Positions 44,803-57,371 of a stretch of DNA of 64,000 nt are shown here, one piece after another. Origin of the DNA: Actinocorallia herbida. GTDB taxonomy: Bacteria; Actinomycetota; Actinomycetes; Streptosporangiales; Streptosporangiaceae. The stretch's first letter is position 1. Each line of letters opens with the position of its first letter. Below the pieces are notes generated by a model, which did no database searches, was not told the DNA's origin, and saw only the letters and a list, made by a program, of their open reading frames with translations. The position numbers and the translations under genes were made by a program. The stretch is from contig NZ_RJKE01000001.1 of NCBI RefSeq assembly GCF_003751225.1, forward strand, positions 9,176,001 through 9,240,000. The letters run 5' to 3'.

Positions 44803-45606
44803 TCAGTTCCACCACTTGTTCTCCTGGGCGGTGAGCCAGCGCGGGTCGTCCGGGAGGGCGAGATGCCGGCGGGTGATGACGTCGAAGTGGAGCAGGGCGC
44901 CCGCGAGCGCGGGGAGGGGCAGGCGGTCGGTCGCGGTGAGCGAGGCCCGGTGGAGCTTCTGCCTGAGCTCGCGGAGGTGGTCGTTGACCCGGGAGGAGAT
45001 GACGTCGCGGGCGGGGCTGGTGCGGTAGCCGCGCAGGAGGTGGTGCGCTCCGGTGAGCTCCAGGGCCAGTCGGCCCAGCTCCGGGGTGTCGGGGAGCGGG
45101 GTCGTGCGGGTGGGGTCGAGGAGCCAGGGGCGGCAGAGCAGGAACGCGACCATGAACTCCTTGGTCATGACGTCGAGGGTGATCGCGGTTCCGGTGGTGG
45201 GCAGGCCCTGATCGCGCCGGTGCGCGGCGGGCCGGCTCGCCGGATCGCCCAGGCGGACGGTGATGGCCAGACCGCGGCGCAGCATCGTTGAGGTGCCCAC
45301 GCCGACCTCGCCACCGGTGATCATGACGCCGACGCCGTCTTCCGGGGCGGGGGGAAGCCGCATGCGGTCGGCTCCGACCTGCACGTAGAGCGCGCGCTTC
45401 GTACTGAGGTTGGCGATGAAGACGCCGCCCGCGGTGGCGGTGATGCGGCCCGCCGTGCGGGAGAGGGACGGGTCGCCGTCGAGGGGCAGGTCCACGGTCC
45501 ACTCGCGGCCGAAGACAAGGTCCTCGCCGGGCGCCAGGGTGCGCTCGCCGCCCGTCGGCGGGATTACCACAACGGGGACCGCCGCGCGCTGGTGCGCAGT
45601 GTTCAT
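44803..45606 (-). CDS. FHA-domain-like protein
   Basis: The 267-residue protein starts with an FHA-like beta-sandwich (about 12-118): the GRE motif is at 33-35 (VFGREWTV), the SR at 49-50 and the N in FIANLSTKRALYV around 66. The conserved His of SxxH is absent (LSRTAGRI), so phosphothreonine binding may be altered. The C-terminal ~130 residues are helical (REFMV-type helix; RLALELTGAHHLLRG; SSRVNDHLRELRQKLHR) and resemble a small DNA- or partner-binding domain. The ATG 45606 has a GGCGGTGAG Shine-Dalgarno sequence. FHA proteins usually work with Ser/Thr kinases, two of which are nearby. Confidence 0.7.
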   Translation of the reverse strand: MNTAHQRAAVPVVVIPPTGGERTLAPGEDLVFGREWTVDLPLDGDPSLSRTAGRITATAGGVFIANLSTKRALYVQVGADRMRLPPAPEDGVGVMITGGEVGVGTSTMLRRGLAITVRLGDPASRPAAHRRDQGLPTTGTAITLDVMTKEFMVAFLLCRPWLLDPTRTTPLPDTPELGRLALELTGAHHLLRGYRTSPARDVISSRVNDHLRELRQKLHRASLTATDRLPLPALAGALLHFDVITRRHLALPDDPRWLTAQENKWWN

Positions 45607-45930
45607 CTCACCGCCTGAGAGATGGTCCGGCGCGGCGGGATGCCGCGCCCGCGCCCAAAGTACTCCCGTCCCGGAGCTTTCTCCCACCCCCGGATCAGGG
45701 GGGAGATCCGGACGCCGCGGGCCTTGCACGATGGCCGCGCCGAGAAGGAACGAACATCCGGATCCACCGAGTTCGGAGCGTTTCCGCGCATGGTTCGACC
45801 CCTTCGATGGCTACTCATGGTGATCATTCGGTGACGAAATGGGAGGCATCGTGCAGGTTTTCGGTGGAGGATGCGGATGCGAGCAGGACAGCGACTGCGG
45901 ATGCCAGGACTGACCGTGCGCGGACCCGGC
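45607..45930. other. 324-base gene-free spacer
   Basis: Between the FHA-like start and the stop codon of the next leftward gene I find no coherent gene or strong palindrome. Short frames on both strands here do not show the third-position G/C bias of genuine genes. It probably contains the FHA gene's promoter and the terminator of the gene at 45931. Confidence 0.5.
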
Positions 45931-47394
45931 TCACAGGCGCGGGAGGAACGCCACGGGGTCGGTGGCGAGCGCCGGCCGCCAGCGGGCGAACACTCCGGGC
46001 CGCGGCGCCCGCAGTTCGACGCCGGAGCCGGTCAGCCAGCGGGCGGCGGTCCACGCCGCCCGCGCGGCCTGGTCCATGACCTCGTCGGGCGCCTCGGGGA
46101 CGTGCGGCAGGAGCGGTCTGGCGGGCTCGGGGCACCGCAGCAGGAGGTCGTCGTGCCGGGATCTGCGGAGCAGCAGGTCCTCCACCGCGGCGTAGGCCGC
46201 GGTGTACCGGTCGAGCCAGACGTCCTCGGGAAAGTCACCGGGATCGTGGTTGCCCGCATTCCTGGCGACCCACCAGTGGAGGTTGGCGGTGGGCGGCCGC
46301 AGGTAGAGGATCGGCGCGGGCGTGCGCTCCAGCAGCTCCGCGGCGTACGAGTGCGTTCCGGCTCCGTCGTGGGTCAGCGCGTCCGGCCGGAGCAGGACCA
46401 CGGTGTGCCAGGGCCTGCCGTCGGCGGCCCGGCGCGCGATGTGCTCGGCGACGCCGATCCAGGCCTGGGCACGCGTCTTCGGATAACGGCGGACCCGGCC
46501 GCCGGGCGTGATGTCGATGTCCGGCCGGACCAGGACGAACTGCCAGCCCAGCGCCTCGGCCAGCAGAGCCGCGGCCTGGCCGCCGCTCTCCCGCCCGCCG
46601 ACCACGACGATCGTGCCGGGGGCATCGCCGCCGCCGAGCGGGTGCGGGTCGACCGGCCGCTGCTGCCCGACGATGGAGTCCTGCACGAGGAGATGGGCGG
46701 GCCAGGTCCCGGCGGCGGCCCGCCAGGTCCGGTGTGCGCGGTCCCCTTGCCAGCTGTACTCCTGCCCGTCGGAGAGCGCGGCGGCGGTGCGGGCGCGCAG
46801 CTCCCAGCGGACGGCCGCGTGCGCGTCGGCGACGCGCGGCGGATGGGGGAAGCCCGCGGCGAGGACGAGCCGTTCGAGATCGCGGGACGGCAGCGGGTCG
46901 GCCCTGTCGCGCAGCCCGAACTCCGCGACGGCGCTGGTGCCCGCACGGTACCGGTCGCCCGAGACGATCTGGGAGAGCCGGACCTCGAAGCGCTCCTGCC
47001 CGTCGGGGTCGGTCAGCAGCGCACGGGCCGCGGCGAAGGGCGCGGCGGGGACCGCGGCGGTGAACGCGGTCAGGTCCGGCACTTCGCTCAGCGCGCGCAG
47101 CGCCGAGGTCGCGTCGTGCGCCAGGTCGGTGAACGCGGTGTCGCGCAGTTCGCGCTGCGGCAGCCAGCCCAGCGCGCCGAACACCTCGGTGACGGACAGG
47201 CCGGCCGCGGTGGCGAGGTCGCGCATGAATTCGGGGGTGACCCCGCCGTGGTGGCTGAGCGTCTTCAGCGTGCCCGCTCTGCCGTGCGCGCCCGCCAGCC
47301 GCCGCGCGACCTCGGCCTTGGTGGTGATCCCGCGTCTGGCCAGCGCGTCGAGGCACAGGGTGATCGCCGCGCGCTCCCGTTCGCTCTGCCCCAC
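45931..47394 (-). CDS. Large protein with XRE-like head and degenerate P-loop
   Basis: The 487-residue protein starts at GTG 47394 behind GGGAGG. The first ~80 residues look like a helix-turn-helix/XRE region (LKTLSHHGG, then PEFMRDLATAAGLSVTEVFGALGW). A central region (about 150-240) is Trp/Arg-rich. Residues 262-283 (TIVVVGGRESGGQAAALLAE) have the shape of a P-loop, but the K-S/T is replaced by Q-A, so nucleotide binding is doubtful. A conserved-looking HTVVLLRPDALTHDGAGTHSY motif follows. I recognise no named family; it could be an actinobacterial regulator or conflict-system component. Confidence 0.6.
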   Translation of the reverse strand: MGQSERERAAITLCLDALARRGITTKAEVARRLAGAHGRAGTLKTLSHHGGVTPEFMRDLATAAGLSVTEVFGALGWLPQRELRDTAFTDLAHDATSALRALSEVPDLTAFTAAVPAAPFAAARALLTDPDGQERFEVRLSQIVSGDRYRAGTSAVAEFGLRDRADPLPSRDLERLVLAAGFPHPPRVADAHAAVRWELRARTAAALSDGQEYSWQGDRAHRTWRAAAGTWPAHLLVQDSIVGQQRPVDPHPLGGGDAPGTIVVVGGRESGGQAAALLAEALGWQFVLVRPDIDITPGGRVRRYPKTRAQAWIGVAEHIARRAADGRPWHTVVLLRPDALTHDGAGTHSYAAELLERTPAPILYLRPPTANLHWWVARNAGNHDPGDFPEDVWLDRYTAAYAAVEDLLLRRSRHDDLLLRCPEPARPLLPHVPEAPDEVMDQAARAAWTAARWLTGSGVELRAPRPGVFARWRPALATDPVAFLPRL

Positions 47395-48621: not shown

Positions 48622-50901
48622 ATGAGGGCGGAGCGCAGCGCGTGGTTCGCGTCCGGCATGGAGATAGCCGGTCGCTACCGACTCGTCGGGCAGCTCGGCG
48701 CCGGCGGATTCGGCGAGGTCTGGGAGGCGTACGACGGCCTCAACGCGTGCCGGGCCGCCGTCAAGTTCCTCTTCCCGCACGTCGCCGCGAGCGACCCGAT
48801 CTGGCTCGGGAAGTTCCACCAGGAGGCCAAGATCGGCGCGGGGCTGCGGCATCCGGGCATCACCCGGGTGCTGGACTTCGGGGAGTGCGTCGTCGAGCGG
48901 CCGGGGGAGATCCAGGCACGCTGGCAGTGGTATCTCGTCATGGAGTTCCTCGACGGCAGGAACCTCGCGGAGGAGGTGTTCCTGCACGGCGGGTTTCAGG
49001 TTCCGCGGCTGGCAGAGGTGGGCGCGCGCGTCGCGGACGCGCTCGCCGCCGCCCACCACGGGGGCGTGGTGCACCGGGACCTGAAGCCCGCCAACATCAT
49101 GCTGCTCGACGGCGACCGGCCGAAGATCTGCGATTTCGGCATCGCCCATCTGGTCCAGCAGGTCGCCCTGCACCCCACGATCGGCAAGAGGGTGATAGGA
49201 AGCCGGCCGTTCATGGCACCCGAGCAGTGGCGCGGCGAGGCGATCGACGCCCGCGCCGACCTGTACGCGCTCGGCGGCATCCTCTACCAGCTCGCCGTCG
49301 GGGAGCCGCCGTTCCGGGCGGACGTCAGCGAGGGGTACGCCGACCAGCACCTGAACCGCGAACCCGTGCCGCCCGGCGTCCGGCGCCCCGACCTTCCCCC
49401 GGCGCTCGACCGCCTCATCCTCGACCTGCTCACCAAGGACCGCGACGAACGCGCCGCCCGTGTGCCGGATGCCGAGAGGGCCGCCGAGCGGCTGCGGGCC
49501 TGGGACCGTGTGCCGGACCGCGGCCCTCGGCGCAGGTTCGCGTCCCGCTCGCCGAAGCCCGCGGCGCAGCCCCTTCCCCGCGTGCCGAAGCCCGCGGCGC
49601 GGCTTCCCCGGGTGCGCTTCCGGGGGCGCGGGCTCGTCCTCGCCGCGGCGGGCGCGACGGCGGTGACGGCCGTAGCGGTCACCGTCCTGCTGACGGCCGC
49701 CGACGCGGCCCCGGACGACGCCCGTCTCACGCTGTCCCATGCCCTCGCGAAGGCCGCAGGCGAGACACTGGCCTCCGACCCCGCCACCGCGGCCCGCCTT
49801 GCCGCCACGGCCTGGCAGGTCTCGCCCGGCACCGAGGCACGTGCCGCGCTACTCGCCTCCTACAACGCCCCCGACCAGGGGGATCTCTCCGGCGAGGTGG
49901 GTGAGGCGGGCGAACCGCTCGAGATCCGTGAACCCGTCATCAGCCGGGACGGTTCCCTCCTCGCCACCGCGACGGGGCCGACCGTCCGGCTCTGGAACAT
50001 GGACACCCGGAGCGAACTCCTCCCCTCGCTCACCGGGCACACCGCCGACGTCACCGGAGTGGCGCTGAGCCCCGACGGCCGGCTCGCGGCCACGGCGGGA
50101 GGCGACGGCACGGTCAGGCTGTGGAACGCCACGATTCGCGAGCAGTCGGGCGGCCGGCTCCGCTTCGCCGCCGATCAGGTCGCCTTCCCCGACGACGACA
50201 CGCTCGCGGCGCTCGGCGGCGGGCGCGTCGCCTTCTGGGACGTCGCGAGCCGCCGTGCGGAGGGGACGCTCACGATCCCCGAATCCGGCTTCGCGCGGAT
50301 GAGCCGGGACGGCTCGGTCCTCGCCGTGCTCATGGCCCCCGGCCTCCTGTTCGCCGGCGACCGGGTGTTCGGTACCGAGGTGGCCCTCTGGGATCTGCGC
50401 ACACGCAAGCCGCTCGGCCGGGTCGACGCGCCCGACGGCGTCCTGCTCTCCCCGACCTTCACCGCGGACGGCGGCGCGCTGATCGGCCGTGACGAGAGGT
50501 CCCGGATCGTCCTCTGGCGGATCCGCGACCGCGGCCTCACGAGGACCGAGATCCGTGCCGCCGACCGCATGGCGGTCGGTCCCGACGGCACGCCGATCGT
50601 GACGATGCCCGATGCCGCGATCCATCTGATGGATCCGGACTCCGGCGAGGTCACCGCGGAATTCCCGGATCCGGACGGGTCACTCTCCCAGGACGCCGCC
50701 TTCACCCAGGACGGCACCTTCATGATCACTTCGGGCGTCGGCCCGCCCACCGTCTGGCGTCTCAAGCCCGACCCCTCGCCCCCGTCCGACAGCGCCCTCG
50801 TGGCCTTCGCCTGCACGGTCGGCGGCGCCATGACGCCCGACGACTGGGCCGGTTTCGCGCCGGACGCCGACCGCACCCTGGGAGCCGACGCGTGCGCCTG
50901 A
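48622..50901 (+). CDS. Receptor Ser/Thr kinase with WD40-like sensor (first gene of five-gene operon)
   Basis: The kinase domain (about 15-290) has the loop LGAGGFGEVWEA, catalytic Lys K48, HRDLKPANIM with D153 and DFG 171-173. A basic linker precedes a TM helix (about 335-355). Outside, a DPATAARLAATAW segment leads into WD40 repeats (for example GHTADVTGVALSPDGRLAATAGGDGTVRLWN). With ATG 48622 the protein is 759 residues; GTG 48619 is one codon earlier but too close to its AGGGGG Shine-Dalgarno sequence. It overlaps the next gene by 10 bases. Confidence 0.9.
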   Translation: MRAERSAWFASGMEIAGRYRLVGQLGAGGFGEVWEAYDGLNACRAAVKFLFPHVAASDPIWLGKFHQEAKIGAGLRHPGITRVLDFGECVVERPGEIQARWQWYLVMEFLDGRNLAEEVFLHGGFQVPRLAEVGARVADALAAAHHGGVVHRDLKPANIMLLDGDRPKICDFGIAHLVQQVALHPTIGKRVIGSRPFMAPEQWRGEAIDARADLYALGGILYQLAVGEPPFRADVSEGYADQHLNREPVPPGVRRPDLPPALDRLILDLLTKDRDERAARVPDAERAAERLRAWDRVPDRGPRRRFASRSPKPAAQPLPRVPKPAARLPRVRFRGRGLVLAAAGATAVTAVAVTVLLTAADAAPDDARLTLSHALAKAAGETLASDPATAARLAATAWQVSPGTEARAALLASYNAPDQGDLSGEVGEAGEPLEIREPVISRDGSLLATATGPTVRLWNMDTRSELLPSLTGHTADVTGVALSPDGRLAATAGGDGTVRLWNATIREQSGGRLRFAADQVAFPDDDTLAALGGGRVAFWDVASRRAEGTLTIPESGFARMSRDGSVLAVLMAPGLLFAGDRVFGTEVALWDLRTRKPLGRVDAPDGVLLSPTFTADGGALIGRDERSRIVLWRIRDRGLTRTEIRAADRMAVGPDGTPIVTMPDAAIHLMDPDSGEVTAEFPDPDGSLSQDAAFTQDGTFMITSGVGPPTVWRLKPDPSPPSDSALVAFACTVGGAMTPDDWAGFAPDADRTLGADACA

Positions 50902-53123
50902 CCCTTCTCCAGCGCAGGATCGTCGCGAGCGCGGCGGCGCTCGGCGCCTGCCTCACCCTGACCGCGTTCAGTCTGCGGACCGAACGGGTCGGCCTCGAGT
51001 TCGCCACCGGGACCGCATGGCTCCGCAGCCGTGCCATCGGCAAGATCATGCTCGCGGACGGAATGTCGGGCGAGGTCTCCGGCTCCGTCCCCCTGGACGG
51101 TCTGCTCAGCCCGGAGATGTTCCAGGCCGCCGACCCACTGCTGGTCTGGCAGGACACGACACCCGAACTGCGCCGCGTCGACGCCCGGCGGATGACCGGA
51201 GAGACCGCGGCGACGCTCCCCGCGCCGCCCGCCCGCCTGGTCGGCACGACGGACGGCGCCTACGCCTTCCGTGAAGGCGGATCCCCCTCTTTCGTGCCGC
51301 GGGAGGAGCCGACCGAGGCCCGGGAGGTCGACGGCTTCACCGGCCCCGCCGACGACGCGGTCGTCGATGACTGGGGCGTCCTGTGGGCGCTCTCCCTGGA
51401 CGAGGGACGCGCGGTGCCCTTCCACGCCGGGACGGCCGAGGAACCGGTGCGCGTCGGCGCCGTGCGGGGAACCGTCGACCTGATCGTGCACGACGGGGAG
51501 GCCGCCCTGTTCGTCCCGGCCTCGGGGGAGATCCGCGGCCTGCGCGACGGGACCGTCACCCGGCTGCCCGCGACGGGCGCCGGTCTGCTCCCCGTCGAGA
51601 ACACCTCGGGCACCCGGGTTCCGGTGCTCCAGCCGCCGCGCACCCTGCTCGTGCCGGGGAAGGCAGGGCCGGGCGTCAGGCGGGTGGAGCTGGGCGGCGC
51701 CGGCACCGTGGCCGCCCGGGCGTTCCAGCTCGGCTCCGCCGTGTACGTGCCCGACCTCCCCGCCGGACGGCTCCTCGTCTACGACCTCGTGACCGGCGCG
51801 GAGGAGGACCCCATCCAGATCGACGACCGGACCATCGCGTCGGCGGGCTTCGAGATGTTCGGCAAGGACGGCATGCTCTGGGTCAACGAGATCGACGGCC
51901 CCAACGCCCTGGTGATCCGCGAGAACGGACACCGGCTCATCCGCAAATACGACGAGAAGGCGGAGAAGCCGCCTTTCCCGGGGACCGCCTCCCTGGAGGC
52001 GAACGCGCCCACCTCACGCCCGTCCGCGCCGCCGGCCCAGCTCGACCCGAGCGCCGCGCCCTCGACCGGCCCGCCTTCTCCCAACAGCTCGCCGACCCCT
52101 CCGCAGACCTCCGAGCCCGGGCCGTCGGGCCCCGTCGAGGAGGCCCCGACCGAGGAGCCGGAGCCCGTCCCGACCGGAGTCGCGGACGGACCGCCGACCT
52201 CGCTGGACGGCCCGGAGGGATCGGCCGGCCTGCTCTACAGCCCGGACGGGCGGGCCCTCGCCGTCTCCGGCGGGCACGAGGTGATGGTGTACGAGATGCC
52301 CGCGAAAAGGCTGCGCGGAAGGCTCCGGGGCGTTGGCGGGGCGATGGCGTTCAGCCAGGACAGCCGTACCTTCGCGGCGGTCTCGGCCGACGACGGGAAA
52401 TCGGTCCTCCTGTACGACGTCCAGACCCTGGAACGCACCGGCCATCCGCCCCTGGAGGGCGCTTGGATGTTCGCGGAGGTCCCTTACCCGATCACCTTCG
52501 ACCTGCTGAGCTTCGCCGACGAAGGGCGGACCCTCATCGGGGGAGGCGGTCCCTACGCCAACAGCCGTGACGCCCAGCGCGTCATCTCCTGGGATCTCGC
52601 CGAGCCCGGCGAGTACACGCGGCTCGGGATGCTCGGCCTCCTCGCGGTCAAGGAGCCGAGCCCGGACGGTACCCGGCTTCTCTGGACGGGATACGGAGAG
52701 GCCCGGGTGCTCTGGATCTCCGGTGACATCGGTGGTCTCCCCGAGGAAAAGTTCGAGGACGCGCACCGCGCCACCTGGACGGGCGACGGCGAGGCGGTCG
52801 TGACGCTGGGGGAGAAGATCACGGTCCGCTCCCTCGCCACCGGGGCGATGATCCGCTCGATCGACTACACGCCCCAGGAGATCAACCACGGAGACGGGGG
52901 GATCTACACCGCGATCGCGGCGAACAGGGACGGTTCGGTCGTGGCGCTCAGCGGGAAGGACGGCACGCTCACGTTCTGGGACACGGTGACCGGTCAGCGG
53001 CGCGGCGACCCACTCGACGACCTCGACGCCGGATCGTCGCTCAGATTCAGCCCGGATGACGAGACCGTCGCGGTCTCCGGCGGGGACGGGAACGTATGGA
53101 TCGTGGAGGTGCCCGGCCGATGA
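50892..53123 (+). CDS. Membrane-anchored double beta-propeller (WD40-like) protein
   Basis: The 743-residue protein has an N-terminal signal-anchor (about 8-28), a first beta-propeller-like half (about 50-365), a Pro/Ser/Thr-rich linker (about 372-436) and a second WD40-like half (about 438-743; GSAGLLYSPDGRALAVSGGHEV, TFWDTVTGQRRGDPLDDL and RFSPDDETVAVSGGDGNVWIVEV). It lacks a kinase domain. As the second gene of the operon, overlapping the kinase (10 bases) and the MoxR gene (ATGA), it may be an extracytoplasmic co-receptor of the kinase sensor. Confidence 0.75.
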   Translation: MRLTLLQRRIVASAAALGACLTLTAFSLRTERVGLEFATGTAWLRSRAIGKIMLADGMSGEVSGSVPLDGLLSPEMFQAADPLLVWQDTTPELRRVDARRMTGETAATLPAPPARLVGTTDGAYAFREGGSPSFVPREEPTEAREVDGFTGPADDAVVDDWGVLWALSLDEGRAVPFHAGTAEEPVRVGAVRGTVDLIVHDGEAALFVPASGEIRGLRDGTVTRLPATGAGLLPVENTSGTRVPVLQPPRTLLVPGKAGPGVRRVELGGAGTVAARAFQLGSAVYVPDLPAGRLLVYDLVTGAEEDPIQIDDRTIASAGFEMFGKDGMLWVNEIDGPNALVIRENGHRLIRKYDEKAEKPPFPGTASLEANAPTSRPSAPPAQLDPSAAPSTGPPSPNSSPTPPQTSEPGPSGPVEEAPTEEPEPVPTGVADGPPTSLDGPEGSAGLLYSPDGRALAVSGGHEVMVYEMPAKRLRGRLRGVGGAMAFSQDSRTFAAVSADDGKSVLLYDVQTLERTGHPPLEGAWMFAEVPYPITFDLLSFADEGRTLIGGGGPYANSRDAQRVISWDLAEPGEYTRLGMLGLLAVKEPSPDGTRLLWTGYGEARVLWISGDIGGLPEEKFEDAHRATWTGDGEAVVTLGEKITVRSLATGAMIRSIDYTPQEINHGDGGIYTAIAANRDGSVVALSGKDGTLTFWDTVTGQRRGDPLDDLDAGSSLRFSPDDETVAVSGGDGNVWIVEVPGR

Positions 53124-54124
53124 CGGGGAACGCGATGTACCGGACGGATGACGAGCTGACCGAGCGCGTCGAGCGGTTCAAGACGGGGTTCGAGCACGCG
53201 GTGCGGGGCATCGCGGAGGTCGTCCAGGGCAAGGAGGAGCAGATCAGGCTGGCGCTGACCGCGGTCTTCGCGGGCGGCCACCTGCTCATCGAAGACGCGC
53301 CCGGCGTAGGCAAGACGCTCCTCGCGCGCTCTCTGGCGCAGACCCTCGGCGGGGTGTTCCAACGTGTCCAGGGCACCCCCGACCTCCTGCCGTCCGACGT
53401 GGTCGGCACCGAGATCATCGACCCGGAGACCGGACGGCTCAGGTTCCGTCCCGGTCCCGTCTTCGCCAACGTCCTGCTCGCCGACGAACTGAACCGGGCG
53501 TCCCCGAAGACGCAGTCGGCCCTGCTGGAGGTGATGGAGGAAAGGCAGGTCACGGTGGGCACCGCCACGCACGAGGTGCCGAGCCCGTTCCTCGTCATCG
53601 CCACGCAGAACCCCGCGGACTTCGAGAGCACCTACACGCTCCCCGACGCCCAGCTCGACCGGTTCATGATCCGGCTGTCGCTGCGCTACCCCGATCCGGA
53701 GGCCGAGATCGCGATGCTGCGGGGGCACCGGGACCTGCGCGGCCCCGGCAAAGTGGCCCGCGCGATCCCCGAGGCGGAGATCAGGGACTACCAGGAGACC
53801 TGCCGCAGGGTGCACCTCAGCGACTTCGCCTACACCTACATCGTCGAGCTGACCGGCCGCACCCGCACGATGGAGGAGCTGGAGCGGGGCGCGAGCCCGC
53901 GGGCGGGCATCGCGCTGATGCGGGCCGCCCAGGTGCGCGCCGCGTCCGAGGGGCGGGCGGGCGTGACCCCCGACGACGTTCAGGATCTCGCCCCCGCGGT
54001 GCTCGGGCACCGGCTCGTCATCAAACCGGACTTCGCCCACGGCTCGTTCACCGCGGCCGACGCCGTCGCCAAGGCGGTCCGCGCGGCGCCCACCGCGAGT
54101 TCGTCCGGCTGGTGGAGCGCGTGA
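53120..54124 (+). CDS. MoxR-family AAA+ ATPase
   Basis: The 334-residue ATPase has Walker A in EDAPGVGKTLLAR (58-70), Walker B LLADELNRASPK (119-130), the sensor and Arg-finger region (LPDAQLDRFMIRL) and a C-terminal helical AAA lid ending with DVQDLAPAVLGHRL. MoxR ATPases act as chaperones for assembly or activation of partner complexes with von Willebrand or DUF58 proteins. It starts inside the previous stop (ATGA) and overlaps the DUF58 gene, as usual for MoxR-DUF58 pairs. Confidence 0.93.
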   Translation: MTGNAMYRTDDELTERVERFKTGFEHAVRGIAEVVQGKEEQIRLALTAVFAGGHLLIEDAPGVGKTLLARSLAQTLGGVFQRVQGTPDLLPSDVVGTEIIDPETGRLRFRPGPVFANVLLADELNRASPKTQSALLEVMEERQVTVGTATHEVPSPFLVIATQNPADFESTYTLPDAQLDRFMIRLSLRYPDPEAEIAMLRGHRDLRGPGKVARAIPEAEIRDYQETCRRVHLSDFAYTYIVELTGRTRTMEELERGASPRAGIALMRAAQVRAASEGRAGVTPDDVQDLAPAVLGHRLVIKPDFAHGSFTAADAVAKAVRAAPTASSSGWWSA

Positions 54125-55212
54125 CGCAGAGCGGCCGGTTCGTCGTAGGGGTGGGGGCCGCCTTCACCGTCGCAGGCATCGCGCTGTCCTATCGGGAGTT
54201 CCTGCTGGTGGGCGGGTGCCTGCTGCTGCTCGCCGGCGGCGCGGCGGCCGTCGTCCGGTGGCCGAGCGGCGCACGGGTGCGCACCGGGGCACGCGTCGTG
54301 CGGGTCACCCGGGGCGAGCCGATGGGGCTGCCGATGGAGGTGCACGGCACGCGCGACAGGCTGGGGCTGCTGCGCTCCCTCGCCGTCCGGGTCGGGGACG
54401 TCGAGGCCGACGTCGCGGAGCACGCCGACGGGACCGTGCTCGAGCTGGGACCGGGGACCGCCCGGCGCGGAGTCTTCGAACTCGTCCCCTCCATGGTGGT
54501 CCGGGAGCCGCTCGGGCTCGCCGAACGACTGCTCGGCTCACTCGACCGGGTGACCTTGATCGTCCATCCCGCGTCGGTGCCGATGCCGCCGCAGGCCGCC
54601 TCCTGGGCCGCCGACGGCCCGGACGGTCCCGCGGAGCGCGACCCCACCTCGTTCCACTCGCTGCGCGACTACGTCATCGGCGACAGTCTCCGGCACGTGC
54701 ACTGGCCGACGAGCGCACGGGTCGGACGCCTCGTCGTCAGACAGCTCACCGACGCCGTCGAACGCTCCCTCACCGTCGTCCTGGACACCGACGCGCGCGC
54801 CTACGCCGACGCGGCCGAATTCGAGGCGTCGGTCGAGACCGCCGCCTCGCTCCTGCACGCGATGGCCGACCTGCCCGGCCGCAACACCGCGAGCCTCAGG
54901 GCGGGAGGCACGGTCCTGGTCGGCGAGCGCAGAGTCGAGGAGGTCCGCCCGTTCCTCGACGCGCTGGCCGCGGTCACCCCGGGGGCGATCCCGCTGCGCC
55001 GGGGCCGTCCGCCGCGCGGCGGACGGCTCGTCGTCGTCACCGGAGGGGTGGACCGCGGCCAGCACGACCTCCTGCGCCGCACGCGGGGCACCGCACGGAT
55101 CTTCCGGATCACCCGTGCGCAACCGCCATCGATCCAGCGGCGCCCGCGTGTCTCGACGGTGACGGCGCCCGACGCCGCCGAGGCCGCGAGGCTGCTCCAG
55201 AGGTCTCGGTGA
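54112..55212 (+). CDS. DUF58-domain protein, partner of MoxR
   Basis: The 366-residue protein has two N-terminal TM helices (about 10-48), a beta-rich middle and the DUF58 core (about 180-235: FHSLRDYVIGDSLRHVHWPTSARVGRLVVRQ). DUF58 proteins of MoxR operons resemble vWA-linked membrane proteins. GTG 54112 or the downstream GTG 54121, which overlaps the MoxR stop, are both possible starts. The stop overlaps the start of the transglutaminase-like gene (GTGA). Confidence 0.9.
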   Translation: MERVTQSGRFVVGVGAAFTVAGIALSYREFLLVGGCLLLLAGGAAAVVRWPSGARVRTGARVVRVTRGEPMGLPMEVHGTRDRLGLLRSLAVRVGDVEADVAEHADGTVLELGPGTARRGVFELVPSMVVREPLGLAERLLGSLDRVTLIVHPASVPMPPQAASWAADGPDGPAERDPTSFHSLRDYVIGDSLRHVHWPTSARVGRLVVRQLTDAVERSLTVVLDTDARAYADAAEFEASVETAASLLHAMADLPGRNTASLRAGGTVLVGERRVEEVRPFLDALAAVTPGAIPLRRGRPPRGGRLVVVTGGVDRGQHDLLRRTRGTARIFRITRAQPPSIQRRPRVSTVTAPDAAEAARLLQRSR

Positions 55213-57371
55213 GACGCCTCCTCCACCCCCCGAGGTGGCTCGTGGAGGCCACCGTGGCAACAGGCGCCGTCCTCGCCGCGGGCCTCTGCTTCCACTCACT
55301 GTTCGGTGCGGGCGCTCTGTGGACACCCGCCACCGTCGTATGTGTCGGCACCGCCTTCGTCTGTGCGGCCGCACGGCGGCTTCCCTGGTGGGCGGCCTGG
55401 CCTGCGTCCGGGCTCCTCGTCGTCGCCGTCCTTTGGTGGGCCGGAGACCATCCGGGACGCTCGGCGATCGCCCTGTACCGGGGCTGGGGAGCGCTGCTCG
55501 ACACCACGCTCCCGGTGCCCGCCACGGCGGCGAACCTCGCGGTGCCGCTCGCGGTGCTCTGGGCGGGAACCGCGGTGACCGTCCGGATGACGCTGCGGAC
55601 ACGAGGCCGTCCCACGCCGCTCATCCCCGCGTTCGCCGTCTTCGCGCTCGCGATGGCCTACTCATCGGCGGAACCCGGGGTCAACCGTGTCCCCGCGGTC
55701 TGCTTCACCGCCGCGGTGATCGCGTTCCTCTTCCTGCGGAGGCCCCGCCGCCGTCCGCGTGCGCGGCGGGCGCGGATCGCGACGGGGCTCGCGGTGTGCG
55801 CCGTGCTGTTCGTGGCCGTCGCCGCCGCGGGATTCCTCGGCGGCTCCCGGCCGCACGACCTGCGCGCCGGCAGGTCGGTCTCACTCGTCGTCCGCGACGA
55901 GGCGAACCCCCTCTCCCGGGTGTCGGAATGGCTCCTGCACGGCACCGAACTGTTCGACGTCGAGGGCACGGCCTCGGGCGAGCCGTTCCGCCTCGCGGTG
56001 TTCGACGCCCACGACGGACTGCGCTGGTCGACGTCGGCGTCATTCCTGCGGACCGGGTCGCGGATCCCCGCGCGGGCCGACGTGTCGGGCGAGCCCGTCG
56101 AACGCACGATCCGGCTCACCGGGCTGCGCGGCCGTTGGCTGCCGTCCGACGGATGGCCCGACCGGCTCTCCACGCCGGCCCTCGTCGATCCGGAGACCGG
56201 CGTGCTGGCCATGCCCGACCCCGTCAAGGAGGGCTTCACCTACCGGGTGTGGACTCGCCGGCTCGGCACACCCGGCGAAGCCGACAAGGCGGCGCTGCGC
56301 GAGCTCTCGCTGCGACCCGACCACGGGGTGGAGCTGCCCGCGCGGCTCGCCGACCTGGGAGAGGAGGCCGCTGCGAACGCGCCCAACCCCTACGACTTCG
56401 CCGAGCGCCTCGCCGAACTCCTCAGCGAGCGGTGCGTCTTCGACGACCACGCCCGCCCCGGGCACTCCCTCGGCAGGCTCGCGGCCTTCTGCGCCGGTGG
56501 TGAGGGCGGCGCCGGGACGTCCGAGCAGTTCGCGACCGCTTACGCGCTGATCGCGCGCGCCCAGGGGCTCCGGACCCGTCTCGTTCTCGGTTTCACGGTC
56601 CCGGAGAAGGCCGACGCCCTGGACGGCGATCACACGGTGAGGTCCGGCGACGTGCTGGTCTGGCCGGAGGTCGGGTTCCCGTCGGTCGGATGGGTCGCCT
56701 TCTCCCCGACCCCGGCCCGGGAAGGCTCCGGCGCGGGCACGACCGATGCCGCCCCGACGCCCGACACTTCCCCCTCCGACCATCAGGTGGACTCACCGAA
56801 GGGGAGCCCTTCTCCCACGGTTCTGCCCCTGCCGCCCGAACCGCCGGACATCGACCCGCCGGTCGTCGCGTGGACGTCCTCGCGGCTGTGGCTGCTGGTC
56901 CTCGGCGCGTTTCTGCTGCTCGCCTATCCCGTCACGGCAGCGGTCATGCCTTGGGCCGCGGTCTTCCGTGCCAGAAGAGCGGGACCCCCGCAAGCGCGCA
57001 TCACCGGTGCCTGGCTCTACGCGATCCGTCCTCTTCCCAGGGATCCGGCACTCACGCCCACCCGGACGTTGGCCGTAGCCGAGTCGGCGCACTTGAACTC
57101 CGCCCCGCTCGCGCCCCTCGCCGCGCTCATGGACGCCTCCCTCTACCTCCGCTATACGCCGACTTCGTCCGACGCCGGAGCCGCGTGGTCGTCCGCCCTC
57201 GCCTTCCGCAGATCCACCTCCTGGTTCCGTCGGTTCCGGCCCAGGGAGCTCGCCTTCCACGTCCGGCTCGCCGTCCATCCCCTCCGCAGAGCCGGCGCGC
57301 TGCGTCATCGGGCGTCGGGCCGGGTCAGTGCAGGAAGACGATCTTTCCTCGGGCGTGCCGGGTCTCGCTGA
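55209..57371 (+). CDS. Transglutaminase-like membrane protein lacking the catalytic triad
   Basis: The 720-residue protein has about six N-terminal TM helices (to about residue 210), an extracytoplasmic transglutaminase-like fold (about 235-505) and a C-terminal TM helix (about 560-580) plus cytoplasmic tail, the TgpA layout. In active TgpA proteins the core reads GYCEQFA...DAHAWPEV...GWVPFDPTP. Here it reads GTSEQFA (S438 for Cys), DVLVWPEV (L483 for His) and GWVAFSPTP (S499 for Asp). All three residues are replaced, so it is expected to be catalytically dead and to act as a scaffold. The GTG overlaps the DUF58 stop. The end overlaps the convergent oxidoreductase gene by 47 bases. Confidence 0.85.
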   Translation: MRRLLHPPRWLVEATVATGAVLAAGLCFHSLFGAGALWTPATVVCVGTAFVCAAARRLPWWAAWPASGLLVVAVLWWAGDHPGRSAIALYRGWGALLDTTLPVPATAANLAVPLAVLWAGTAVTVRMTLRTRGRPTPLIPAFAVFALAMAYSSAEPGVNRVPAVCFTAAVIAFLFLRRPRRRPRARRARIATGLAVCAVLFVAVAAAGFLGGSRPHDLRAGRSVSLVVRDEANPLSRVSEWLLHGTELFDVEGTASGEPFRLAVFDAHDGLRWSTSASFLRTGSRIPARADVSGEPVERTIRLTGLRGRWLPSDGWPDRLSTPALVDPETGVLAMPDPVKEGFTYRVWTRRLGTPGEADKAALRELSLRPDHGVELPARLADLGEEAAANAPNPYDFAERLAELLSERCVFDDHARPGHSLGRLAAFCAGGEGGAGTSEQFATAYALIARAQGLRTRLVLGFTVPEKADALDGDHTVRSGDVLVWPEVGFPSVGWVAFSPTPAREGSGAGTTDAAPTPDTSPSDHQVDSPKGSPSPTVLPLPPEPPDIDPPVVAWTSSRLWLLVLGAFLLLAYPVTAAVMPWAAVFRARRAGPPQARITGAWLYAIRPLPRDPALTPTRTLAVAESAHLNSAPLAPLAALMDASLYLRYTPTSSDAGAAWSSALAFRRSTSWFRRFRPRELAFHVRLAVHPLRRAGALRHRASGRVSAGRRSFLGRAGSR

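Follow-up and report, generated by a model that had tools for sequence, protein, structure and literature searches.

As sections of two papers describe it, the PFNA operon of Bifidobacterium comprises pkb2-fn3-aaa-atp-duf58-tgm, always in that order, and its kinase Pkb2 phosphorylates MoxR (PMC8430577, PMC6803598). Part of the first of these papers assigns PFNA to host-immune sensing and credits it with a transglutaminase-like enzyme (PMC8430577), a passage of a 2023 paper states that it is found only in bifidobacteria (PMC10688814), and a mycobacterial moxR operon is described in an excerpt of another report as resembling it (PMC12067865). A word-start search for "propeller" gave no match in the main text of the PFNA papers examined. 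Here, we analyzed a five-gene operon of Actinocorallia herbida that lies within a stretch of 64,000 nucleotides (NZ_RJKE01000001.1, positions 9,176,001 to 9,240,000; hereafter, the window) of a 9.8-Mb one-contig genome (72% GC). The preliminary description of this locus knew of no published account of its gene combination. Such an account exists, as PFNA consists of these five kinds of gene in an identical order. We consider it moderately probable that the operon encodes a kinase-gated MoxR–DUF58 machine built on an inert membrane adaptor that is tied to a surface propeller, as one variant of a cassette that includes PFNA.

Results

An Overlapping Operon with a Catalytically Depleted Transglutaminase Fold

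The five genes all lie on the forward strand, and their start codons are candidates read from the sequence. Gene 1 (48619 with a GTG start or 48622 with an ATG start, to 50901) encodes a Ser/Thr receptor kinase found in the list of open reading frames (ORFs) and by Pfam, and gene 2 (50892..53123) encodes an anchored two-propeller protein recognized by Pfam and profile comparison. These are followed by a MoxR AAA+ ATPase (gene 3, 53120..54124), a DUF58 protein (gene 4, 54112 or 54121 to 55212), and a TgpA-like pseudo-transglutaminase (TG; gene 5, 55209..57371) assigned by its TgpA_N and Transglut_core matches in Pfam and by alignment of its triad. All four junctions overlap, as first described, by 10, 4 (ATGA), 13, and 4 (GTGA) bases; the MoxR/DUF58 overlap shrinks from 13 to 4 bases (GTGA) if the DUF58 gene starts at 54121. 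A second locus of the same genus (L031, genome G002) allows an identical reading of two junctions, with 10 bases shared by the kinase and propeller genes and ATGA by the propeller and MoxR genes; its TG gene begins by GTGA on the MoxR stop rather than on the DUF58 stop as in the window. The propeller proteins of the two loci are ∼50% identical; because the overlaps recur exactly between such diverged proteins, genes 1 to 3 appear to have stayed coupled. The proposal that the five genes are produced together is supported by the overlaps, two of which are kept in L031. Separate promoters within the overlaps, which had been named as a possible sign of an accidental operon, did not appear: we found no sigma-70–like promoter inside the operon (0.1 expected), although such a test has little power at 72% GC. 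Two terminator-like sites were found inside the operon vs. 1.8 expected, which is chance level.

The TG protein carries TgpA_N with several hydrophobic segments, a full-length Transglut_core match at residues 383-500, a further hydrophobic segment at 552-582, and a C-terminal tail. Ser438, Leu483, and Ser499 replace the Cys, His, and Asp of the triad, which upholds the earlier assignment of a dead transglutaminase fold. We then placed this loss in a wider set of 201 aligned TG loci, in which 30 had both Cys and His, 4 had His only (L096 and L225-L227), none had Cys only, and 167 had neither, with one of the last (L306) showing a gap at the Cys column. Among the 171 Cys-less loci, the His column held 17 residue types (His in 4), and the Cys column held S, D, A, P, G, Q, T, and E. 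Both residues were lost in all 55 loci linked to a propeller gene and in all 12 bifidobacterial loci, while none of the 30 Cys+His loci had a propeller gene; 20 of these 30 were weaker TG-profile matches selected without sight of their residues, and the remaining 10 were taken from other fetched stretches. On this alignment, the cassette "transglutaminase" looks like a pseudoenzyme. The open-access literature yielded no paper on a dead transglutaminase in a MoxR–DUF58 setting. Separately, the TGs of L225-L227 are PFNA-like and have Cys replaced by Asp with His kept; they are perhaps intermediates of catalytic loss.

The propeller-linked loci came from two surveys. Within the family, 150 genomes were searched with a TG profile at E 1e-30, and 63 matched, in clear score tiers. 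Within the class, a propeller profile at E 1e-15 matched 53 of 394 genomes. The family TG profile was made from three dead TGs and favors dead TGs. We examined 67 stretches (60 from the surveys plus the window, L031, L032, L027-L029, and L033), 61 of which contained a TG. The propeller protein was called in 55 of these 61, the remaining 6 comprising two loci with Cys and His, one with His only, and three with neither. The order propeller–MoxR–DUF58–TG on one strand was found in 45 of the 55; in the other 10, the propeller gene followed the TG (5 loci), was inverted (3 loci), or stood beside a displaced DUF58 (L031) or without a called MoxR (L083). Twenty of the stretches had been chosen class-wide by the propeller only, and all 17 that had a TG (not L137, L151, and L152), which are among the 55, had a dead one. 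The propeller–MoxR–DUF58–transglutaminase cassette is present in several families of the class. In L078, a single MoxR–DUF58–TG trio is flanked by two propeller proteins, one upstream and one downstream.

PFNA-Ordered Loci Within and Outside Bifidobacteria

We also searched the taxonomic order of a small-genome relative, where 224 of 248 genomes matched the TG profile at 1e-6, a count that takes in generic TGs; 20 stretches were fetched. Kinase, gap, MoxR, DUF58, and TG followed one another in all 12 bifidobacterial loci (L209-L220, family f52; 12 of the 14 matching genomes listed), and the gap held an ORF of 1833-2108 aa in 9 of 10 loci checked and none in L215. Four loci from three more families (L221-L224) had the kinase first and dead TGs; none of L225-L228 had the kinase-first order. 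Nine loci of family f38 (L163-L171), picked as weaker second-copy matches in six genomes of 2.8-4.3 Mb, likewise had dead TGs, with the kinase first in eight, the ninth (L169) being a short stretch.

A scan with the bifidobacterial TGs gave 205 relatives. The best 80 comprised 75 from Bifidobacterium/Bifidobacteriaceae and 5 from Cellulomonas (2), Sanguibacter, Flavimobilis, and an uncultured Cellulomonadaceae bacterium. The triad His was kept in none of these 80; the scan used the patterns MVGDSEQY and ASAMAL[ML]AR, the first of which fixes the Cys position, so that only the His column counts. The 12 bifidobacterial loci described above had been selected independently of the MVGDSEQY pattern. 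Of the best 80, 75 had at least 9.9 kb before the TG, and 51 of these showed an upstream same-strand kinase and MoxR. Among 20 listed of the 24 remaining loci, 12 had a weak, fragmentary kinase match in the initial 61 bases, and truncation at the end of the 10-kb flank explains many of the 24. A long ORF with an N-terminal propeller motif stood before MoxR in 73 of the 80. Kinase, MoxR, DUF58, and TG also occurred in PFNA order in Cellulomonas cellasea, Sanguibacter, Flavimobilis, and further families.

An N-Terminal Propeller Common to Both Kinds of Surface Protein

The gene 2 protein of the window consists of a hydrophobic anchor (residues 10-28), an N-terminal propeller (∼30-360), a Pro-rich linker, and a C-terminal WD40 propeller. 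Pfam matched nothing in the N-terminal half and gave no fn3 match, with WD40 there instead. Of the double WD40 propeller originally proposed, the two propellers and the C-terminal WD40 identity stand, but the N-terminal propeller is of a different kind. The protein (P0002) alone as a query found no relative in a first contig scan and few long ones in a later search, and profiles were needed. Against the Protein Data Bank (PDB), a profile of window-type N-domains built from 14 loci (14 rows) matched designed Pizza propellers at best E 3.9e-7, an S-layer propeller at 3.8e-5, and YncE at 1.8e-4. We built a corresponding profile of PFNA-type N-termini from 12 of 15 motif-recognized proteins (4 bifidobacterial, 3 of f38, and 5 other). 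In one hhalign comparison, the two profiles aligned over 315 columns (prob 99.4, E 3.6e-21); the control WD40 propellers, taken from the window and L031, matched neither N-propeller profile (prob 2 and 11).

To model the PFNA-type N-terminus, we gave AlphaFold the Cellulomonas cellasea sequence with an alignment of 45 named-locus sequences plus the window. The model is confident (pLDDT 86.7, pTM 0.78) and has one helix followed by an all-beta domain, and Foldseek matched it to the propellers NirF (best E 1.8e-8), NirN, BamB, and Atg18 at TM ∼0.5. A single-sequence AlphaFold run on the window N-propeller (pLDDT 31.9) was not used. We assign the propeller fold to the PFNA-type N-termini because of this model and the window-side profile, as their own profile had no match to PDB sequences at E 0.1. 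By profile comparison, the predicted N-terminal propeller is what unites window-type and PFNA-type gene 2 proteins as homologues. C-terminal to it, the domains vary: WD40 in the window and L031, FN3 in L032, and seven Big_9 stretches both in the bifidobacterial L211, which has FN3 as well, and in the PFNA-ordered L163, which gave no fn3 match. WD40-like sequence also forms the C-terminus of a further propeller-cassette protein (L136:6523-8967, family f20), where WD40 may have replaced FN3 a second time.

The Kinase and Its Linkage to the Cassette

The window kinase has a Pkinase domain at residues 20-279, one hydrophobic segment at 339-357, and WD40 matches at 437-645 (Pfam and hydropathy), with the propeller region predicted to lie outside the membrane. 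Its kinase motifs are intact (GAGGFG / K / E / HRDLKPAN / DFG / APE). Compared with its ortholog in L031, it is 44% identical over residues 372-759 and 40% identical in the kinase domain; BLASTP of the full-length proteins gave the sensor segment only, and the kinase domains were compared separately.

A kinase domain occurred within the stretch in 43 of 55 propeller loci compared with 1 of 30 generic Cys+His controls (Fisher p 5.6e-12; one model for both sets, median stretch 17 and 18 kb); the loci are related by descent, and the p-values are indicative. An upstream same-strand kinase is usual in the fetched PFNA-type loci, whereas the kinases of propeller cassettes, where present, mostly lie after the TG, on either strand. 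The preliminary description had made conservation of both the propeller and the kinase gene beside moxR–DUF58 a touchstone of the operon. The outcome is mixed. The propeller gene directly precedes moxR–DUF58–TG in the 45 one-strand loci, and a kinase domain is present in most of the stretches, but its same-strand upstream position in the window recurs only in L031.

We placed the kinases in a tree of 75 rows, in which no broad set of unlinked kinases was included. Those of PFNA type formed one clade (99/98; 100% of bootstraps) without the window kinase, which grouped together with the L031 kinase and those of L101, L145, L153, and the control L318 (99/98). The cassette-linked kinases as a whole were spread over several separate clades. 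Given its position apart from the PFNA-type kinases, the window kinase was probably a separate recruit. From the same tree, we also rejected the view that it represents the ancestral kinase of PFNA.

MoxR and DUF58

The window MoxR has AAA_3 and AAA_lid_2 domains with Walker A APGVGKT and Walker B LLADELNRA. The DUF58 protein scores 30.5 bits with DUF58 (cut-off 23.4), has an N-terminal hydrophobic segment at 23-41, and is presumably vWA-like. In a MoxR tree of 78 rows, 18 generic MoxRs formed one clade (100/99), with all cassette MoxRs on the opposite side of that branch. The PFNA-type MoxRs were a separate clade (100/100), and the propeller-cassette MoxRs, including that of the window, lay between the generic and the PFNA-type proteins.

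Flanking Genes

Two genes upstream of the operon, both on the reverse strand, have counterparts at L031. The 487-aa protein of unknown family encoded at 45931..47394 (-), which has no Pfam match over the cut-off, is 67% identical to L031:3916-5424 (-), a gene just before the L031 kinase. The 308-aa protein of unknown family encoded at 44803..45729 (-) is 60% identical over 257 residues to L031:14260-15303 (-), which lies inside the L031 cassette between TG and DUF58. Judging from these matches, both genes may be part of the locus. An FHA label given by eye to the 44803..45729 protein has no support from Pfam, which gave 0 families up to E=5. At the 3′ side, the TG gene overlaps a convergent dehydrogenase-like gene by 47 bases at the 3′ ends (57325-57371).

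FHA-like ORFs (single-sequence searches, E 1e-3) were found in 9 of 9 f38 loci, 7 of 8 of L221-L228, 4 of 12 of L209-L220, 49 of 80 named loci, and 0 of 28 generic loci; these counts are rough, as flanks differ between loci. Matches also occurred in L031 and the window, where the best ones were obtained with the L031 query, a protein without an FHA call in Pfam. RDD-family genes stand at the cassette in L031 (13369-14157, -) and L308 (12214-13542, +), and in Cellulomonas cellasea, an RDD–FHA fusion immediately follows the TG gene.

Discussion

In the mechanism that we propose, the propeller protein and the ectodomain of the pseudo-transglutaminase, a predicted multi-pass membrane protein, would meet outside the membrane. 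MoxR–DUF58 would act on the cytoplasmic face of the pseudo-transglutaminase and assemble, open, or reset the complex. The transmembrane kinase would sense the envelope via its own propeller, phosphorylate MoxR, and thereby gate the machine. We infer the membrane topology, the complex, the direction of signaling, MoxR as the substrate in the window, and any ligand. An adaptor is the simplest reading of the TG-fold protein, because catalysis has been lost while the fold has been kept with MoxR, DUF58, and the propeller. Kinase gating is suggested by the recurrent kinase linkage and by the Bifidobacterium result, and the kinase-to-MoxR route put forward earlier for the window has its precedent there, in the Pkb2 and MoxR sections of the two PFNA papers (PMC8430577, PMC6803598). 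Two further suggestions of the preliminary description, that a pair of extracytoplasmic propellers would sense a ligand and that DUF58 may be a substrate, are conjectural.

Several observations weigh against this proposal. On the kinase tree, Pkb2 and the window kinase are not orthologs, a same-strand upstream kinase is found in only 2 of 55 propeller loci (the window and L031), and 12 of the 55 have no kinase domain in the fetched stretch. Moreover, 16 cassette-linked kinase-fold genes lack HRD or DFG elements (L086, L088-L095, L097, L098, L100, L102, L134, L135, and one of two in L153, at 7334) and are likely pseudokinases beside the pseudo-transglutaminase; since these look degenerate, phosphorylation by the linked kinase cannot be the mechanism everywhere. 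Neither the MoxR nor the DUF58 protein of the window has a known phosphosite. The window MoxR lies outside both the PFNA and the generic clade on a long branch, and its position is unsure because the tree program warned of long-branch joining. In L031, the DUF58 gene is outside the overlapping block, ∼2 kb further on and behind two opposite-strand genes, and in a further genome of the genus (G001), the propeller protein had no match at E 1e-12.

These kinase results bear on an alternative that we regard as unlikely, namely that the core is the four-gene set of propeller, MoxR, DUF58, and pseudo-transglutaminase, with the kinase as a recent passenger or transcriptional neighbor and no phosphorylation. 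A kinase outside the PFNA clade, rarely upstream on the same strand, missing from some loci, and degenerate in others is what such a passenger would look like. However, chance would hardly account for repeated recruitment from several kinase clades, with a kinase domain near 43 of 55 cassettes vs. 1 of 30 controls, and the 10-base kinase/propeller overlap recurs in two species. A role as a biological-conflict system like the MoxR–vWA–beta-propeller ternary systems (bpMoxR) seems improbable to us, and we rejected it. The window MoxR does exceed the PF20030 cut-off (39.5 vs. 27), and according to part of one report, propellers and kinase domains occur in MoxR–vWA systems (PMC7159879). Nevertheless, the same protein scores 199 bits with AAA_3 and has the P-loop APGVGKT, the window DUF58 protein (P0004) has no propeller match, and Pfam revealed none of the known effector modules in the five genes. 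Finally, that the TG-fold protein catalyzes via other residues, as a Ser-based or unusual hydrolase, is highly improbable despite Ser in place of the Cys in 42 of the 55 loci with a propeller gene, because catalysis would need conservation and both columns vary among the Cys-less loci.

Returning to the kinase-gated adaptor machine, we give an even chance to a broader statement: that actinomycetes share a kinase-linked transmembrane pseudo-transglutaminase machine, with a surface propeller, an inert adaptor, and a MoxR–DUF58 motor; that PFNA is one branch of it, whose TG would be no enzyme and whose origin would not lie in host-immune sensing; and that kinases were recruited several times, including in the window. 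PFNA-order loci outside bifidobacteria, together with the related cassette in large-genome members of the class, argue for a more general role in the cell envelope. The survey predicts that tgm encodes a pseudoenzyme and reveals an N-terminal propeller in the second PFNA gene product, and the cassettes in several families of the class contrast with the view, taken in a passage of the 2023 paper, that PFNA is found only in bifidobacteria (PMC10688814). The dead branch also separates motor function from transglutaminase chemistry, and the role of MoxR–DUF58–TG becomes testable.

Comparison with Known Systems

The bpMoxR systems, as far as sections of their description go, share with the window a MoxR, a vWA-like partner, and a propeller, but they have the propeller fused to vWA and a P-loop that is often GXXXTAKS, and they occur mostly in other phyla (PMC7159879). 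The generic MoxR–DUF58–TgpA trio is like the window in the order of MoxR, DUF58, and TG-fold genes, with TgpA_N and Transglut_core beside MoxR and DUF58. It differs in keeping Cys and His (S438 and L483 in the window), in having no propeller gene in any of the 30 loci, and in having a kinase domain in 1 of the 30. The other cassettes of the class (the propeller-positive loci among L032, L064-L102, and L134-L153) have the core genes and the loss of Cys and His in common with the window, whereas their kinase mostly follows the TG and is sometimes degenerate.

With PFNA, the window shares a kinase, a surface protein, MoxR, DUF58, and TG, in the same order and on one strand. Two further likenesses are features found here and not part of the papers' definition: a membrane-anchored gene 2 protein with a homologous N-terminal propeller, and a TG without Cys and His. 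In contrast, the window kinase comes from another clade and has a WD40 sensor, gene 2 has WD40 in place of FN3 and Ig-like domains, and the MoxR is outside the PFNA clade. The gene after the window TG is the opposite-strand dehydrogenase-like gene and not prpC; neither of the PFNA accessory genes prpC and fha, present in some species, lies downstream of the window TG, and the gene labeled FHA-like by eye (44803..45729) lies upstream of the operon. We therefore rejected an identification of the operon as PFNA proper, for which FN3 domains, Pkb2 orthology, and the MoxR clade all fail. The window operon is a diverged, WD40-equipped variant of the actinobacterial cassette that also includes PFNA.

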